Below are positions 1,328 to 63,288 of a DNA stretch of 64,000 nt, piece after piece. Source of the DNA: Nocardioidaceae bacterium (GTDB lineage: Bacteria; Actinomycetota; Actinomycetes; Propionibacteriales; Nocardioidaceae). The position numbers and the translations under genes were made by a program. Where the stretch lies: positions 792,909 through 856,908 of the forward strand of contig JAUJOD010000001.1 of assembly GCA_030447865.1 (NCBI GenBank), given 5' to 3'. Under the pieces are notes generated by a model. The model saw only the letters and a list, made by a program, of their open reading frames with translations, did not search any database and had not been told where the DNA came from. The stretch's first letter is position 1. Each line of letters begins with the position of its first letter.

Positions 1328-3585
1328 GCGCTGCCCGACGATTCCGACCGGCGACGACGCAGCTCTGGCCACGCGGCCAACGCGGCGGCCCCCAGCAGGC
1401 CAAGTGCCGACAGCACGAGTCCGACGGTGAAGCCGGGCGGCCGGAAGGTAACCACCAAGGTGCCCGGTTGCGTTCCGGCGGGAAGACGGACTGCCAGCAG
1501 GCCCGCCCGACTTCGGCTGACTTCGACCGACTGGCCGTCCAGTTCCGCTGAGTAGCCCGGCCAGCCCAGCCGGGCGAACACCAGCCTCGTGGTGCCGGCT
1601 CTGACCTCACTCAACTCCACGGTCTCTTGGGTAGCGGTCCCGGCGGCGTTGGCAACGGTGGTCCCCGGAGAGACCCAGCTCAGCCGGCTGTCCGGCCAGG
1701 GGTACGGCGAGTCGTGCTGCAGCACGACGACCTGCTGAGTCTGCACGGTTGCGCGCCACCCAGGCGGAGTCTTGATAGGCGCCACGAGCGACCGGTCAAG
1801 CACGACCGTGTCGATCTTCATCAGCTCGGCCAAGTTGGACTGTCCGGGACCGACCGGGTTCCACAGGTTGCGGTAGCCCTGTTCGCACGTGTCGCCCTTG
1901 AAGTCCATGCACAAGCGGTCGGTGAAGGCCTCAAGCCCGACACCCGAGTAGGTGTTGACCGAGTCCACGCCGATGGCGTGGAACATGCTGCCGCCGAGGA
2001 AGTTGCGCCATAACGACCGCCGCCCTGGCTTGTCCAGCTTGTGTTGAATAGCGTTCAGATCGGCGAACTGGATCACGGTGCCGGTGTATCGGGATGCGAA
2101 CCGCTCGCTCAGCTGTGGCCGCGAGTGCGGAAAGTCCCACTCTCCGGCGCTGTCGTTCTCCGGGAAGACCTGCACCTGCAGCAACAAGACGAGCAGCGTG
2201 CCTGCCTGGAGTACCGCCAGCACGAGTGCCGGCCCGCGCCGCTGGAACCCGCGGATGGCGTACACCAGGGCCCCGGTCAACACCGCGACCAAGGCGAAAG
2301 CCGCTAGGTGCTCGCCAAGCATGGTCGGCCGCTGTGCCCAGGCCAGGAAGAAGCCGAAGCCGACAAGGCCCAGGCTGGCCGCCGTCCGGGCCTTGACCCG
2401 GTCAGTCGCGAACCCTTGCGTCATGGCCACGGCGAGCGCCACACCAAGCGGCAGGTAGAGATACTCGGTCAGTCGCAGCGGCCAGCGGAAGAGCCACACC
2501 GCAGTAGGGCCGATCACCAGCAGGAAGTAGATGCTGGCTACCACAGCCAACGCCAGCGACTGCCGCAACCTTGACCGGATCGCCGCCCCGCGCAGCCAGG
2601 GCAGGAGGGGGAGGACGAACCAGGCGAAGTAGACAACTGGCGCGCTCATGGGTGGGACGAACGCCTCGATGCCTGGGAGGAACGTCGGGCTGCTGAGCCC
2701 GAACAGGTCGCCGAGGTTCGGACTCATGAAGTCGGTGTTGCGGATCCCGGCCAAGTCGCCACGGACGGCCAGGGCAGAAGTGACGACGACCGGCCAGAAC
2801 ACCAGCGGGATGACCGCCGCAACGCACAACGACAGCAGCACGAGTCGCCGCGCCGCGGCCAGGTTCCGGCTGACGACGAACTCAACCAGCAAGCCACCGC
2901 CGACGACGGCCAGCCCGAGGACGCCGTACGGGTTTCCCTGCGTCACCGTGAGCGCCCCCACGAGGAAGCCGAGCAACGGATTCATCTGACCTCTGGCGAC
3001 TCTGCGCAGCGCCCACCATGCATACGGCACATAGCTGAACGCGATCAGCCCAGCGGCCCACGAGGCGGCCTCCCAGTACAGGGTGAAGCCGACGAACGGC
3101 GCTGCTACGGCGGCGATCGAGGAGGCCCAGCGAGCGGCGCCGTACTCCCGACACAGCAGGTAGACGCCGAGGGCGAGTAGCGTGAGGAACTCGACCTTGA
3201 CCACCGTCGCCGCGACCTGCAGGTTGGGGATCATCGAGACCGCCACCCAGTTGACCATGTTGATCGGGTTGTAGATCCCGAACAACGCCTCGGCGGGGTA
3301 GTTGCCGCCGTGCCAGGACGCCGGATCGAGCAGCGGTGGCCAGTTCCCGGCTCGGACGAGATCACCGAGCCGGGCAAACGTCGGCATGAACTGTGTGTTG
3401 CTGTCGCCACGGAGATAGAAGTTCGTGTTACCGACGGTTGGCGGAATCAACCCCAGCAAGGCGGTGAACGCGCACACCGCAAGCGGCGGAGCCCAGCTGG
3501 GCCAGCGCGGCTGGGAAGATGCCTCCGCCGGAGTGACAGCCGGCTCAGCCAGCGTGTCGTCGGAGGCCGAAACGCTGGAGGTCAA
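1321..3585 (-). CDS. Large polytopic membrane protein, YfhO/GT-C-like
   Basis: A 754-residue integral membrane protein with about 12-13 hydrophobic helices over residues 35-460, a soluble region around 460-700 and a final C-terminal helix (VGLVLSALGLLGAAALAAW). The layout matches bacterial YfhO-like or GT-C glycosyltransferases that use polyprenyl-phosphate sugars and modify cell-surface polymers. An early loop carries YLRGDSNTQFMPTFARLGD, as in YfhO-like proteins. The TTG start overlaps the gtrA-like stop by 4 bp (TTGA), so it is the third gene of the GT2-GtrA-membrane protein operon. In the comparable Gtr modules the third gene transfers the flipped sugar; the acceptor here is unknown. Confidence 0.75.
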   Translation of the reverse strand: MTSSVSASDDTLAEPAVTPAEASSQPRWPSWAPPLAVCAFTALLGLIPPTVGNTNFYLRGDSNTQFMPTFARLGDLVRAGNWPPLLDPASWHGGNYPAEALFGIYNPINMVNWVAVSMIPNLQVAATVVKVEFLTLLALGVYLLCREYGAARWASSIAAVAAPFVGFTLYWEAASWAAGLIAFSYVPYAWWALRRVARGQMNPLLGFLVGALTVTQGNPYGVLGLAVVGGGLLVEFVVSRNLAAARRLVLLSLCVAAVIPLVFWPVVVTSALAVRGDLAGIRNTDFMSPNLGDLFGLSSPTFLPGIEAFVPPMSAPVVYFAWFVLPLLPWLRGAAIRSRLRQSLALAVVASIYFLLVIGPTAVWLFRWPLRLTEYLYLPLGVALAVAMTQGFATDRVKARTAASLGLVGFGFFLAWAQRPTMLGEHLAAFALVAVLTGALVYAIRGFQRRGPALVLAVLQAGTLLVLLLQVQVFPENDSAGEWDFPHSRPQLSERFASRYTGTVIQFADLNAIQHKLDKPGRRSLWRNFLGGSMFHAIGVDSVNTYSGVGLEAFTDRLCMDFKGDTCEQGYRNLWNPVGPGQSNLAELMKIDTVVLDRSLVAPIKTPPGWRATVQTQQVVVLQHDSPYPWPDSRLSWVSPGTTVANAAGTATQETVELSEVRAGTTRLVFARLGWPGYSAELDGQSVEVSRSRAGLLAVRLPAGTQPGTLVVTFRPPGFTVGLVLSALGLLGAAALAAWPELRRRRSESSGSAQ

Positions 3586-4004
3586 CGCGCCTCCTGATGG
3601 CTCCGCGCCCTGCCCTCCACTGGGTCAGCTGCGGGATGCTCACGACCTGTGAGCACGAACTGGGCGACGGTGAAGGTGATCGGGATCGCCACCACGGCAG
3701 CCGCTAACGCTGACCAGCGCTGATCGAACCCGAGATGTTCGACGAGGAGATAAAGCCCCGTGGTCGTGATCACGAAGTTGGTGAGGGTCGACAAGGGGAA
3801 CAGCAGAAAGCTCCGCCAACTCGGTTTGACCCGGAACGTGAAGCGGCAATTGAGGAAGTAGGACCCGACCACCGCCAAGCCAAAGGCAATGACATGCGCC
3901 ACCAGGTAGGGCAGGACCATCCGCAGCAGCAGATAGAGGCCGAAGTAGACGCCGGTGTTGACGACCCCGACAATGCCGAACCGAACGAATCTGGCGAGGT
4001 TCAC
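3582..4004 (-). CDS. GtrA-family membrane protein (putative lipid-sugar flippase)
   Basis: A 140-residue protein with four predicted membrane helices and the GtrA signature: FVRFGIVGVVNTGVYFGLY at the N-terminus and SYFLNCRFTF near residues 48-57. GtrA proteins are thought to translocate undecaprenyl-phosphate-linked sugars across the membrane. The GTG start overlaps the stop of the upstream glycosyltransferase (GTGA), and the stop overlaps the start of the downstream membrane protein, so the three genes are translationally coupled. Confidence 0.88.
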   Translation of the reverse strand: MNLARFVRFGIVGVVNTGVYFGLYLLLRMVLPYLVAHVIAFGLAVVGSYFLNCRFTFRVKPSWRSFLLFPLSTLTNFVITTTGLYLLVEHLGFDQRWSALAAAVVAIPITFTVAQFVLTGREHPAADPVEGRARSHQEAR

Positions 4005-4990
4005 TCGCTACTGCGGTTCTCGTCGTGCGCGGGGCCGAGCGCTGTGGTGACCGGTGTCGAGGCGTCGCCGCTGCTCTCCTTGACCAGGAAGTGCGGGCGG
4101 CGCTTTGTCTCGTAGTAGATCCGCCCGAGATACTCCCCGATCACCCCGAGCATGATCAGCTGTACGCCGCCGAAGCCAAGGATTGCGCAGATGATCGTGA
4201 CGTAGCCGTCGACGGGGTTGCCGCCGATCAGCGCGTCGACGACCACGAATGCGGCGTACGCAAAGGCGACCAGCGTGACGAAGGCTCCGAGGTGGATGGC
4301 CATCCGCAGCGGCCGGGCGTTGAACGACAACACGCCGTCAATCCCGTAGTTGACCAGGTCGGAGAAGCGCCACTTCGACTCGCCGGCTCCGCGCTCGACG
4401 TTGTCGTAGTCGACGACGGCGGTGTCGAAGCCGATCCACGAGAACAGGCCCTTGGAGAACCGGTTGTACTCACCCAGCGACAGCAACGCCCGTACGGCCC
4501 GCTGGCTGAGGATCCGGAAGTCGCCGACGCCGTCTTGGATATCGACCTCGATAAGCCGGTTGAACACGCGGTAGTAGAGCCGGGCCACGAGGCTGCGGGC
4601 GGCTGCGTCGCCTTTGCGGGTACGGCGGGCGACGACCTGGTCGTAACCCATATCGAGCAGCGGAAGCATCTTGCTCAGCAGTGCCGGTGGGTGCTGCAGG
4701 TCGGCATCCATGATCGCGACGGCTCGCCCGGTTGCCTGGCTGAGGCCAGCCAGCATGGCGGCTTCCTTGCCGAAGTTGCGGCTGAGTGCCAGGAACCGGA
4801 ACCGAGGATCGAGCTGGTTGATCTTACGCATCAGCGCGACGGAGTCGTCCTGGCTACCGTCGTCGATGAACAGCACCTCGAAGTCGGAGGTGATCGCCGC
4901 CAGGTCGTGGGTGAGCGCCTCATGCAGGCGCAGCAGCATCCGCTCCTCGTTGAGGCAGGGAACGACGACGGACAGCTCAACGGTCTCCAC
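4001..4990 (-). CDS. Family 2 glycosyltransferase, GtrB/DPM-like
   Basis: A 329-residue GT2 enzyme. The N-terminal GT-A domain has LSVVVPCLNEE (residues 6-16), FIDDGSQDDS and the metal/nucleotide-binding IMDADLQHPP (about 93-102). Two C-terminal helices (about 230-255 and 262-288) anchor it in the membrane. This is the arrangement of polyprenyl-phosphate glycosyltransferases (GtrB, ArnC, dolichol-phosphate mannose synthase), which load a sugar onto the lipid carrier on the cytoplasmic side. It starts with GTG and is first in the operon with the GtrA-like and YfhO-like proteins. The sugar specificity is not predictable. Confidence 0.9.
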   Translation of the reverse strand: METVELSVVVPCLNEERMLLRLHEALTHDLAAITSDFEVLFIDDGSQDDSVALMRKINQLDPRFRFLALSRNFGKEAAMLAGLSQATGRAVAIMDADLQHPPALLSKMLPLLDMGYDQVVARRTRKGDAAARSLVARLYYRVFNRLIEVDIQDGVGDFRILSQRAVRALLSLGEYNRFSKGLFSWIGFDTAVVDYDNVERGAGESKWRFSDLVNYGIDGVLSFNARPLRMAIHLGAFVTLVAFAYAAFVVVDALIGGNPVDGYVTIICAILGFGGVQLIMLGVIGEYLGRIYYETKRRPHFLVKESSGDASTPVTTALGPAHDENRSSE

Positions 4991-56152: not shown

Positions 56153-58333
56153 TCAGACGTTCGCGGTCTCGCCTGTCCGGCGGTGAGCCTCGTCGTCGTC
56201 CACCCGGGCGGGTGGAGAACTACCAGCGCGTTCGCCACGAGGGGGAAGCGGTGACGGTTCGACTCTCAAGAGCCGCGCAACGCCAGCGGGGAGCCACCAG
56301 TTCCACCGCCCCAACACGCTCACCAGCGCCGGGACGAGCAGCGCACGGACCAAGGTGGCGTCGATGAGGATGCCGACCGCGAGAGCGGTTGCCAGCACCT
56401 TGATGTCGGTGCCGGGCGCCGACGCCAGTGCCGCGAAGGCGAAGAAGAGGATCAGGGCAGCGGAAGTTACGAGCCGACCCGTTCGGCCCAGCCCGGTGAT
56501 CACCGCCGCTTGCGTGTCGCCGGTGGCGTCGTACTCCTCTCGCATGCGGGCGAGGATGAACACCTCGTAGTCCATGGACAGACCGAAGAGGAACGCGAAG
56601 ATCATCACGGGGAGCCAGAACGTAATAGCCCCCGTGGCCGAGACGTCGAAGATCGCGTCGGAACCGTTGCCCAGCTGCCAGAAGAAGACCACCGCGCCAA
56701 AGACGGCTGCTAGCGACAGGAGGTTGAGCAGCACCGCCTTGATCGGCAGCAGCAAGGAGCGGAACGTCCGCACCAGCAGGATGAAGGTGATCAGCGCGAT
56801 GAGCGCCAGGACGTAGGGGAAGTTGTTGTAGACGGCGGTGAAGTAGTCCTCCACCGTTGCTCCTGCCCCGGTGACGCCAACGGGTCCAGTGGTCGCCCCC
56901 TCGACGGCTGACCTGACCGCATCGACAACCGCCGTGCCAGAGCTGTCGACGGTTTCATTGACCGGCAAGACGTCGACGACGGCCTGCCCGCCCTTCGTCG
57001 TCCCGACCACGGCCGTCTGCACGCCGTCGACACCTCGGGCGGCTTCGGCGGCGGCCTCGGCTTCGTCCGCGGGCACGAGAACCTCCACAGGAGTGAGCAC
57101 GCCTGTCCCGATGCCGCCGTCGCGCAGAGTCGTCAGCGTTTCGAAGGCGGGACCGCTGCGCGCCAACGACTCGATCCCCGACTGGCCGATCTTCAAGCTG
57201 AACACCGGCACGATGAGAAGCGCGAGGGCTATCAGCGCTACCCCGGCAGCCACGAAGCGGTGACTGACGATGGCCCGAGCCCAGGCAGTCCAGCCACGGG
57301 AGGCGGTTGCCTCCTTGCGGATCCTGGGGTAGTCGATGCGCGGCCCGATGCTCGTCAGCAGCGCCGGCAACAAGGTCAGAACGACTGCCACACTGACGAT
57401 GGGGATCAACATCCCGCCAATGCCCATGCTCCGCAAGAACGGCACCGGCACCACAATCAGAGCCAGCAGGCTGATGGCGACGGTGACACCCGACGCGAAG
57501 ACGGCGTGCCCCGCGGTCTTCATCGCCACCACCACGGCCTCCTCGTTGCTGCGACCATGGGCACGCTCCTCACGCCAGCGCGACACCAGTAGCAAGGAGT
57601 AGTCGATTGCCACGCCGAGGCCGACGAGCGAGATGAGGAACTGCACGACGAAACTCACATCGCTGAACGTTGTCAGCCCGAGGACCAGAACGAACGTCGT
57701 CAAGATCGACACGGCGGCGATCAGGAGTGGGACGAGCGCCAGGAACGACGCGAAGACGAACAGCAGGACAAGGAACGCACCCGCCGCGCCGAGCAGGGTC
57801 TCGATCAGGACGCTGGGACCCTCGGTGTCGCCGCCGGCCGACAGCAGCCCGTACGACGTCAGGCCGCTCTCGAAGCCCTGCTTTTCGGCCGCCTGCGCAA
57901 GAACTGGCTCGATCACAACCTCGATCCCGGGCCCGAAGGACTCAGGTAGGGGGCCTTGGATGAGCGCGAACGTCGACCGCCCGTCGTCGGAGAGAAAGCC
58001 TTCGTCGTTCGTGCTCGCGAAGTCAACGACACGCGCCCGCGGCAGTGCCTGCCCAACGGCGCCGAAAACTTGGGCGACCTCTTGCTGGTTGGAGGTGACC
58101 GTCTCGCCTGCTGGCACCGTGACAACCGCGACGTAGGTGTCGAACGAGCTGGTTCCATATGTCTTGATCAGCTGCTGCTCGGCCGTGTCGCCCGGCTGCC
58201 CAGGCAGCGAGAAGTCCAGCGTGAGGCGGTCACTGAGTTGACCCGCCGAGGCTGCACCAGCGATGAAGAACACCAACCAAAACGCGCTGACGATGCGGCG
58301 GTGGTGCATGACGAAGTGAGCCAAACGCTCCAC
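56153..58333 (-). CDS. MMPL-family RND transporter
   Basis: A 726-residue transporter with the MmpL layout: one N-terminal helix, a periplasmic domain (about 40-170), six helices, a second periplasmic domain (about 390-500) and six more helices. Seen: GLGVAIDYSLLLVSRWREE and the matching second-half segment GLSMDYEVFILARMREEYD with the proton-relay Asp residues. GTG start. Divergent from a MarR-type regulator with a shared palindrome between them, so drug- or lipid-inducible efflux is likely. Confidence 0.9.
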   Translation of the reverse strand: MERLAHFVMHHRRIVSAFWLVFFIAGAASAGQLSDRLTLDFSLPGQPGDTAEQQLIKTYGTSSFDTYVAVVTVPAGETVTSNQQEVAQVFGAVGQALPRARVVDFASTNDEGFLSDDGRSTFALIQGPLPESFGPGIEVVIEPVLAQAAEKQGFESGLTSYGLLSAGGDTEGPSVLIETLLGAAGAFLVLLFVFASFLALVPLLIAAVSILTTFVLVLGLTTFSDVSFVVQFLISLVGLGVAIDYSLLLVSRWREERAHGRSNEEAVVVAMKTAGHAVFASGVTVAISLLALIVVPVPFLRSMGIGGMLIPIVSVAVVLTLLPALLTSIGPRIDYPRIRKEATASRGWTAWARAIVSHRFVAAGVALIALALLIVPVFSLKIGQSGIESLARSGPAFETLTTLRDGGIGTGVLTPVEVLVPADEAEAAAEAARGVDGVQTAVVGTTKGGQAVVDVLPVNETVDSSGTAVVDAVRSAVEGATTGPVGVTGAGATVEDYFTAVYNNFPYVLALIALITFILLVRTFRSLLLPIKAVLLNLLSLAAVFGAVVFFWQLGNGSDAIFDVSATGAITFWLPVMIFAFLFGLSMDYEVFILARMREEYDATGDTQAAVITGLGRTGRLVTSAALILFFAFAALASAPGTDIKVLATALAVGILIDATLVRALLVPALVSVLGRWNWWLPAGVARLLRVEPSPLPPRGERAGSSPPARVDDDEAHRRTGETANV

Positions 58334-58408
58334 GCTGAACTCCTGACTGAACTCACCGACTGGGGTACCTTCAAGGGACGGTACTGATCCATCCGCCTAA
58401 CCGTCAAC

Positions 58409-58420
58409 ATAGTTAACTAT
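58409..58420. promoter_or_regulatory. Palindrome ATAGTTAACTAT between MMPL and MarR genes
   Basis: A perfect 12-bp palindrome in the 145-bp divergent region, 76 bp upstream of the MMPL start and 59 bp upstream of the MarR start. Length and AT-rich symmetry fit a MarR-type operator. Confidence 0.7.
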
Positions 58421-58478
58421 CAACGAGGTAAACTTCCGGTGACGTCGGGCGTAACGGCGCGGCGGTGAAGGAGGCGAG

Positions 58479-59360
58479 GTGGTCGTTCGAAGCGACAGCG
58501 CGACAAGCCTCGCCCCGGAGCAGGTCGACCTGGGCGACCTCACTGGCTTCCTGCTTCGGCGGGCGTTCGTCCGCGCGGTCGGTGCTGAACGCGCCTGCAT
58601 GCCCGAGGACGGCCACGTCGCAGAAGTGACGGTGCTGTCAGTCCTCGCCGAGCGCGGCCCGGTCTCGCAGCGGGAGCTGAGCGACATCACCTCCGTGAAC
58701 CGCACAGTGATCGTCAGGCAGGTCGACGCGCTCGAGTCCAAGGGATGGGTGCGCCGGGACACCAACCCGGCTGACCGTCGGTCGTACGCGTTGGAGCTCA
58801 CCGAAGCCGGTCAGGCAGCGCTGGCGGAACTGAGCGGCGACCTCGACCAGGCCGAGGCCCAGCTCACACAGCCCTTGACGCGCGCTGAGACCCGCCGGCT
58901 CAAGCAGCTACTGCGGGAACTGCTGGTCGACGACCAGGCGATCGGCTGTCGGTCGCTGGCCGATCGAACCGGGTTCCTGCTGGCGCGGGCGCATCACACG
59001 GTTCGCGGGTGGGCGGAGCGCCAGCTGGGGACCCTCGGGATCCATCCCCGCGATTTCGGGGTGCTCGCCATCATCGGTCGTGAACAACCGTGCTCGCAGA
59101 CCCAGGTGGCAGCGCGGCTTGGAATCACCTCGCCGGGAGTGCTCGGCTTCGTTGACGGGTTGGTGGCCCGGGGGCTGTTGCAGCGGTCACGCAGCGGCAC
59201 TGATCGTCGTACCAATGACCTGGTGCTCACCGCCGCCGGGCGGCGGTGCTTGACCGCAGCGATCGACGTGGCCACCGAGCTCCAAGCCGACCTCGTACGA
59301 CGGTTGGGAGCCCCCGGCGAAGCCGAGCTCAGGATGCTGCTGCGCAAGCTCATCGGCTGA
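58479..59360 (+). CDS. Tandem (double) MarR-domain regulator
   Basis: A 293-residue protein with two MarR winged-helix domains in one chain. The first (about 20-148) has VSQRELSDITSVNRTVIVRQ, VDALESKGWVRRDTNPADRR; the second (about 158-290) has CSQTQVAARLGITSPGVLGF, VDGLVARGLLQRSRSGTDRR. MarR proteins normally act as dimers of ~150-residue chains, so this one may be a single-chain pseudodimer. GTG start with AAGGAGGCGAG upstream. It is divergent from the MMPL transporter, its likely target. Confidence 0.87.
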   Translation: MVVRSDSATSLAPEQVDLGDLTGFLLRRAFVRAVGAERACMPEDGHVAEVTVLSVLAERGPVSQRELSDITSVNRTVIVRQVDALESKGWVRRDTNPADRRSYALELTEAGQAALAELSGDLDQAEAQLTQPLTRAETRRLKQLLRELLVDDQAIGCRSLADRTGFLLARAHHTVRGWAERQLGTLGIHPRDFGVLAIIGREQPCSQTQVAARLGITSPGVLGFVDGLVARGLLQRSRSGTDRRTNDLVLTAAGRRCLTAAIDVATELQADLVRRLGAPGEAELRMLLRKLIG

Positions 59361-59417: not shown

Positions 59418-59446
59418 TTGACCCTTACGACAGCGTTGAGTGTGAT
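59418..59446 (+). promoter_or_regulatory. Candidate sigma-70-type promoter of the dnaK operon
   Basis: TTGACC (59418-59423), 17-bp spacer and TGTGAT (59441-59446), with the -10 covered by the first HAIR. A second possible -10 (TACACT, 59484-59489) lies under the second HAIR. Confidence 0.5.
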
Positions 59447-59455
59447 CGACTCAAC
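59435..59455. promoter_or_regulatory. HAIR element 1 (HspR operator)
   Basis: GTTGAGT-N7-ACTCAAC; the consensus is CTTGAGT-N7-ACTCAAG. It lies 73 bp upstream of dnaK. Confidence 0.85.
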
Positions 59456-59487: not shown

Positions 59488-59508
59488 CTTGAGTCTGTAC
59501 GACTCAAT
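59488..59508. promoter_or_regulatory. HAIR element 2 (HspR operator)
   Basis: CTTGAGT-N7-ACTCAAT, one base from the HAIR consensus, 20 bp upstream of the dnaK start. Confidence 0.9.
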
Positions 59509-62136: not shown

Positions 62137-63288
62137 ATGAGTCCCGCGGACTGGGCGAGCAAGGACTTCTACCAGGTTTTGGGCGTGTCCAAGGCCGCCA
62201 CGGCCGATGACATCAAGAAGGCCTACCGAAAGCTCGCGCGCGCGAACCACCCCGACTCCCGACCCGGTGACACCGCCGCGGAGGAGCGCTTCAAGTCGAT
62301 CTCTGAGGCCTACTCGGTGCTGTCCGACCCCGACAAGCGCAAGGAGTACGACGAGCAGCGGACGTTGTTCGGCTCCGGCCGGTTCCGGCCTCCCCGGCCG
62401 GGCCAGCAGGGCGGCTACGACTTCTCCGACCTGTTCGCCGGGCAAGCCGGTGGCGGCAGCTTCTCCGACCTCTTCGGCGGCGTGTTCGGCGGCGGCACTC
62501 GGACTCGGTCGACGCAGGCGCGGCGCGGCCAAGACGTCGAATCGGAGACATCGCTGACGTTTGATCAGGCGCTCGAGGGGCTGACCGTTGCCCTCCAACT
62601 GAGCAGCGACGCGGCCTGCCGGGCCTGCTCGGGCACGGGTGCGCGCGCCGGCACGCTGCCGCACGTATGCCCGAACTGCGAGGGCTCGGGGATGCAGACC
62701 TCGAGTCAAGGTGGCGTTTTCGCGATGACCGAGCCGTGCCGGGAGTGCCTGGGCCGCGGCCTGGTCGTCGACGACCCCTGTCCGGTGTGCCACGGCTCCG
62801 GCCGGGGCGTGTCAACCCGCACGATCCAGGCCCGCATCCCGGCCGGGGTCAAGGACGGCCAGCGGATCCGGCTGCGTGGCAAGGGCGCCCCCGGCGAGCG
62901 CGGCGGTCCCCCCGGCGACCTCTACGTCACCGTGCACGTAGCGCCACACCCGATTTTCGGCCGCAAGGGCGACAACCTGACGATCACAGTGCCCGTCCGG
63001 TTCGACGAGGCAGCGCTGGGCGCCGACATCGCCGTACCGACCCTTGCCGGCGGAACCGTGACGCTGAAGGTGCCGCCAGGCACACCGAACGGGCGGACGT
63101 TCCGGGTCAAGGGGCGCGGCGCTCCACGGCGCGACGGCACCAAGGGCGACCTGCTGGTGACCGTCGAGGTGGAGACGCCGACCTCCCTCGACGAGGCGTC
63201 CCGCGCAGCCGTCGAAGCGTTCCGGGCCGCATCCAACGGCCACGACCCGCGTGCCGGCCTGTTGAGGGGAGCCCGCAGTCATGGCTAG
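62137..63288 (+). CDS. dnaJ: Chaperone protein DnaJ
   Basis: A 383-residue Hsp40. J domain with [20 protein letters not shown] and the HPD motif, a Gly/Phe region ([16 protein letters not shown]), four CxxCxGxG zinc motifs ([32 protein letters not shown]) and the C-terminal substrate domain. This is the DnaJ1 type found next to hspR in actinobacteria. Overlaps hspR by 8 bp. Confidence 0.97.

Follow-up and report, generated by a model that had tools for sequence, protein, structure and literature searches.

What a transcriptional regulator with two MarR domains in a single polypeptide reads on the DNA, and which gene it serves, is the question raised by a locus in a 64,000-nucleotide stretch of a Nocardioidaceae genome of 3.1 Mb (assembly GCA_030447865.1, contig JAUJOD010000001.1; the whole stretch is referred to as the window). 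The tandem MarR gene is located between a divergently oriented exporter gene and co-directional genes encoding Hsp70, GrpE, DnaJ, and a MerR-family protein (Table 1). A preliminary description of this DNA had named an MMPL transporter as the facing gene, and the match of its product to PF03176 (E 1.2e-72) bears this out.

Table 1. Features of the tandem MarR locus, given as positions within the window.
Feature	Position	Strand	Remarks
MMPL-family exporter, presumed regulated gene	56153..58333	-	divergent; 726 aa; PF03176
Predicted -10 box of exporter promoter	58378..58383	-	TACCGT; 18-bp spacer from -35
Predicted operator	58400..58423	+	left half ACCGTCAA 58400-58407, spacer CATAG, right half TTAACTAT 58413-58420, right flank CAA
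Predicted -35 box of exporter promoter	58402..58407	-	TTGACG; inside operator left half
Perfect 12-mer palindrome	58409..58420		ATAGTTAACTAT; spacer end and right half of operator
Tandem (fused) MarR regulator	58479..59360	+	293 aa; single uninterrupted frame; GTG start at 58479, AAGGAGG just 5'
N-terminal MarR half	58524..58931	+	residues 16-151; recognition helix SVNRTVIVRQVDAL; wing DRRSYALELT
C-terminal MarR half	58947..59357	+	residues 157-293; recognition helix GITSPGVLGFVDGL; wing DRRTNDLVLT

The regulator had been described as containing two complete but diverged MarR domains, and this was confirmed by profile searches, in which each half alone exceeded its curated Pfam cut-off (N-terminal half, 47.2 bits against PF01047 with a cut-off of 24.6; C-terminal half, 49.5 bits against PF12802 with a cut-off of 27) and the two halves shared 31% identity across 134 residues. 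A conserved D-x-R motif in the wing is a trait of the MarR family; it is present as DRR in both halves. PF12802 has 23 matches in the host genome, and two strong ones, as judged by eye, occur only in the tandem MarR frame. The possibility that the reading frame represents two genes was dropped, because it is uninterrupted and the same fusion was found again in a total of 35 loci, the window included.

With the window protein as query, matches covering both halves were detected in at least 26 of the 197 family genomes. A profile of 26 family proteins (A1) found both halves in at least 4 of 117 genomes of the order, all belonging to the same family, and in 13 of 394 genomes of the class sample, nine of them outside the family, with a fourteenth match that covered one half only. 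In the phylum sample it retrieved 2 of 396 genomes at E 1e-40, both already found in other samples. As these samples overlap and only the best candidates per genome were scored, all counts are lower bounds. The 35 tandem loci consist of 26 from the family, including the window, and nine class-level loci from outside it. Searches of named genome contigs yielded a single tandem protein, from Nocardioidaceae MAG YX3bin1 (89%), in addition to five matches for which only one MarR domain was detected, and no relative was found among viral contigs searched with the tandem profile. The fusion of two MarR domains is thus uncommon, as had been supposed at the outset, yet recurrent. In the literature, searched with coverage of few subscription journals, no title or abstract describing a fused or tandem MarR protein was found, and among 60 of the 66 MarR matches in the PDB, all 138–201 residues long, there was no tandem MarR protein.

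In a tree of 102 domain rows, all 35 N-terminal halves formed one clade (support 96/70) apart from the C-terminal halves, which fell into two groups. Topology tests rejected neither a single clade of the C-terminal halves (p-AU 0.265) nor one clade of all 70 halves (0.35). One old fusion within the Actinomycetes is a possible origin of all 35 actinobacterial proteins. Two further tandem MarR proteins are encoded on alphaproteobacterial plasmids (L110, 3947-4996; L111, 3908-4858), the former among ABC transporter genes and the latter beside oxidoreductase genes; these likely have a separate origin, because their halves cluster with each other in the same tree.

An exporter gene is oriented divergently from the tandem gene in all 26 family loci. 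An MMPL gene faces the regulator in nine of them (the window, L039, L045-L051) and an MFS gene in 15 (L054-L068, with L063 assigned by tblastn), whereas L052 and L053 carry a divergent pair of ABC exporter genes; in these two loci an MMPL gene follows the regulator, and the upstream region lacks a convincing match to the shared operator. Outside the family, two of the nine class-level loci show comparable arrangements, L112 with an MMPL and L114 with an MFS gene. A survey of the genus covered only two genomes, the second of which is 70% complete. In this sister genome (L039) the regulator is 89% identical to that of the window, and the operator, hutI, and dnaK are also kept, but its MMPL protein (1655-4138) has only 29% identity to the one in the window; in the window genome, the protein most similar to the sister's pump (44% identity) is encoded on another contig. 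By these sequence comparisons, the family of the pump is unchanged, while the pump itself looks to have been exchanged in place.

The only palindrome in the control region mentioned in the preliminary description was a short perfect 12-mer. This repeat is real, and ATAGTTAACTAT has no other copy in the window within two mismatches (chance mean 0.02), but it is not the conserved unit: the sister genome retains only nine of its 12 bases, and it forms part of a larger element of 21–24 bp. The 12-mer was therefore dropped as the operator in favor of this larger inverted repeat, whose core is the 21-bp asymmetric sequence ACCGTCAA-N5-TTAACTAT (58400-58420), the sole match of its kind in the window. 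Using the scoring consensus ATCGTCAA-N3to6-TTAACGAT and a threshold of 13 of 16 positions, an operator-like site was found in 25 of the 35 tandem loci, which are related by descent and hence not independent counts, compared to about 1 of 700 shuffled regions. Six loci fell short of the threshold with a best score of 12/16 (L052, L053, L058, L115, L118, and L120), the best site of L116 reached 11/16, and L113, L117, and L119 had none at 11 or more; some gene starts in these ten loci are approximate. Within one mismatch, the pattern occurs once in the window genome and once in the 70% complete sister genome, in both cases before the tandem gene, and the reversed pattern used as control had no match in either.

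The half-sites are separated by 5 bp where five residues part the two protein halves (the window, L039, L045-L051, L112, L114) and by 4 bp where six residues part them (L054-L068). Operator spacing and linker length thus differ together between two clades, which is suggestive, though it amounts to one change on the tree. Eight loci of the MFS clade (L055, L057, L059, L060, L062, L066, L067, and L068) have two operator copies 45–50 bp apart. The asymmetric copies share the same orientation, whereas L057 and L068 each contain one copy of the C/C type, as defined by the sixth base of the two half-sites.

The tandem sites are asymmetric at this sixth base. When a consensus allowing C or T in both halves was applied, 33 sites in 25 tandem loci had C on the left and T on the right in 30 cases, the exceptions being the two C/C copies just mentioned and one T/T site that is an off-register overlap in the window. 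With a widened consensus, used without shuffle control, the best sites of 29 tandem loci were C/T in 26, the others being C/C in L057 and L116 (weak) and T/T in L118 (weak). In contrast, a clade of single-domain actinobacterial relatives (L134-L157; alignment A3) showed C/C in 24 of 24 loci, with sites of the ATCGTCAG type and the half-site ATCGTCAR. These loci were obtained from a search of 196 genomes and 19 of the 24 belong to one genus; the clade was taken from the domain tree, but chosen after its symmetric sites had been seen. Among an earlier set of 29 single-domain rows, seven reached 13/16, comprising five C/C sites, one T/T site (L043, with a 3-bp gap), and one C/T site (L117). The latter, at 2300-2320 on the minus strand, is a tandem-type site in front of a single-domain MarR gene, about 600 bp away from a gene for a tandem MarR protein; an MFS gene, detected by tblastn, lies beyond.

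The conserved inverted repeat overlaps the predicted promoter of the exporter. A strict sigma-70 scan found no promoter, whereas a looser search for TTGAC-N16-18-TANNNT on the exporter strand retrieved one in 24 of the 35 loci, compared to 2 of 700 shuffles. Such a promoter was found in 19 family loci, and in all of these but L061 and L065 (17 of 19) its -35 box lies within the left half of the operator. Because of this position, repression by occlusion of the -35 box appears likely, and binding sites of MarR-type regulators are described as often overlapping -10/-35 regions and thereby blocking the polymerase (PMC5401885). The overlap also offers another explanation of the asymmetry, in which both heads read equivalent half-sites and the difference is a mere trace of the -35 box, since CGTCAA reads TTGACG on the other strand. 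Selection on the promoter would explain part of the asymmetry, as the C of the left half also belongs to the -35 sequence TTGAC. However, 11 loci of the MFS clade have an exporter-nearer copy (separated from the other copy by 45–50 bp in eight, the sole copy in three) that lies beyond the -10 box in all 10 loci with a promoter found, and these copies still are C/T in 11 of 11. The -35 box likewise leaves unexplained the T-rich outer flank of the right half, where two outer positions are each T in ten of the 11 MMPL-type sites; on the left, the corresponding counts are three and five. An origin of the asymmetry in the promoter alone is therefore considered unlikely.

Regulators of the MarR family normally act as homodimers of two identical one-domain chains, with N- and C-terminal helices forming the dimer interface. 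The tandem protein itself was modeled with AlphaFold2 from an input of seven sequences, two of them full-length. The five models had pLDDT values from 60.6 to 82.0, and the best (mean pLDDT 82, pTM 0.78) showed the expected helices in each half. The highest ranking Foldseek hit was SarS (1p4x), which aligned over both domains (265 columns, TM 0.52/0.59, rmsd 6.9 A); VIA-align placed SarS third (Z 15.7, 235 residues, rmsd 5.1 A), tied with one-domain MarR chains. SarS, a member of the SarA family of Staphylococcus aureus, is reported to form, in place of a dimer, a single larger chain whose two halves are homologous (PMC10715151), and the window protein likewise is one chain with two winged-helix halves. 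The single-chain principle is thus already known from SarS. The two proteins share only 14–15% identity, and the SarA and Rot profiles scored below their cut-offs on the window protein (PF22381, 23.7 versus 27 bits; TIGR01889, 21.1 versus 62.6). SarS, moreover, is described as repressing leukocidin genes and not a facing exporter (PMC10715151). We infer that the two proteins have separate origins; the window protein may work like SarS without being a member of the SarA/SarS family.

Other known regulators resemble the tandem protein in part. The classical repressors MarR, MexR, CouR, and PcaV share the MarR fold and wing with each of its halves, but differ from a chain with two unlike halves and an asymmetric predicted site. 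CrtR of Corynebacterium glutamicum is also of the MarR type and divergent from an operon, which is headed by an mmpl gene in some relatives; it apparently binds the genome at one site, which has a TTAA core and is situated near the promoter (PMC5401885). Its targets are carotenoid genes and its effectors isoprenoid pyrophosphates, and the available part of its description does not mention a tandem architecture. The single-domain relatives introduced above have a half-site and an R-T recognition helix like those of the N-terminal half, but only one domain and a symmetric site.

The recognition helices of the two halves differ strongly. Those of the N-terminal halves mostly contain (N/S)-R-T (R in 26 and T or S in all of the 35 proteins) and those of the single-domain relatives R-T without exception (24/24), whereas among the C-terminal halves R was absent from all 35 and T present in only one. 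Mean identity to the single-domain relatives was 0.35 for the N-terminal and 0.25 for the C-terminal recognition helix. Across the whole domain it was 0.30 for both, so that the likeness of the N-terminal half to these relatives is confined to the helix. From these sequences, the N-terminal head would read the C-type half-site and the C-terminal head the T-type half-site. The left and right half-sites nevertheless differ consistently at one or two bases only, despite the strongly unlike helices. They are still mostly alike, as if a single type of head read both, and R-T is absent from the C-terminal recognition helices. Both observations would fit fused chains that dimerize in the manner of ordinary MarR proteins, with one type of half binding DNA as a homodimer and the other serving as a ligand-sensing or structural module. 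Such an arrangement is improbable given that the wing motif is retained in both halves of all 35 proteins (DRR in 29 and NRR in six N-terminal halves, DRR in all C-terminal halves), that dN was lower than dS for both halves in six of six pairs, and that the C-terminal helix-turn-helix and wing show zero amino-acid changes between the window and its sister. It is further disfavored by the consistent left/right asymmetry of the sites, while those of single-domain relatives are symmetric, and by the model, in which the single chain is already predicted to be SarS-like over both domains. A covalent pseudodimer with two unlike DNA-reading heads, as initially envisaged, best fits the wings, the dN/dS pattern, the unlike helices, the asymmetric site, and the SarS-like predicted structure.

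On this basis, we consider it probable that the divergently oriented MMPL exporter gene is repressed by a single-chain MarR pseudodimer whose two heads each read a different half-site. This reading is supported by the intactness of both halves, by a conserved element that is asymmetric, unique in the genome, and overlaps the predicted promoter, and by the symmetric sites of the single-domain relatives. According to the proposed mechanism, the halves would be packed against each other as subunits are in a MarR dimer, placing two unlike winged-helix heads on the 21-bp operator. The N-terminal head would probably bind the exporter-side half-site ATCGTCAA, which resembles the half-site of the single-domain relatives, and the C-terminal head the derived half-site, ATCGTTAA as seen from the regulator side. 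Bound in this way as a single chain, the protein would cover the -35 box of the exporter and block RNA polymerase, and probably repress its own gene as well; binding of a compound exported by the MMPL protein to the MarR pocket or pockets would release the block. Some MarR-family proteins act as activators. That the tandem protein activates the exporter promoter is nevertheless highly improbable, as the predicted site covers the predicted -35 box itself, where sites of this type often obstruct the polymerase (see above).

Homodimeric repressors are tied to near-symmetric operators, and a change in their recognition helix consequently affects both half-sites at once. Fusion lets each head change alone. 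A moderately favored scenario is that the gene of a homodimeric repressor was fused with a relative or with its own copy, after which the heads diverged and the operator lost its symmetry alongside; that the unfused relatives still have symmetric sites and that spacing and linker co-vary is in line with such a history. The architecture itself has a precedent in SarS. What appears to be new is the paired loss of symmetry in a protein and its predicted operator, set against symmetric relatives. Since fused regulators whose sites are lopsided coexist with unfused relatives whose sites are symmetric, the co-evolution of regulator and operator can be tested directly. The locus further points to an exporter switch in which a single chain would act on a site unique in the genome, and which might be used as a sensor once its ligand is known.

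The region downstream of the tandem gene contains two exact TTGAGT-N7-ACTCAA inverted repeats 5' of the Hsp70 gene (59436-59454 and 59489-59507; chance mean 0.03), which we take to resemble the HAIR sites of HspR. The MerR-family reading frame at 63281 is HspR-like by its position.
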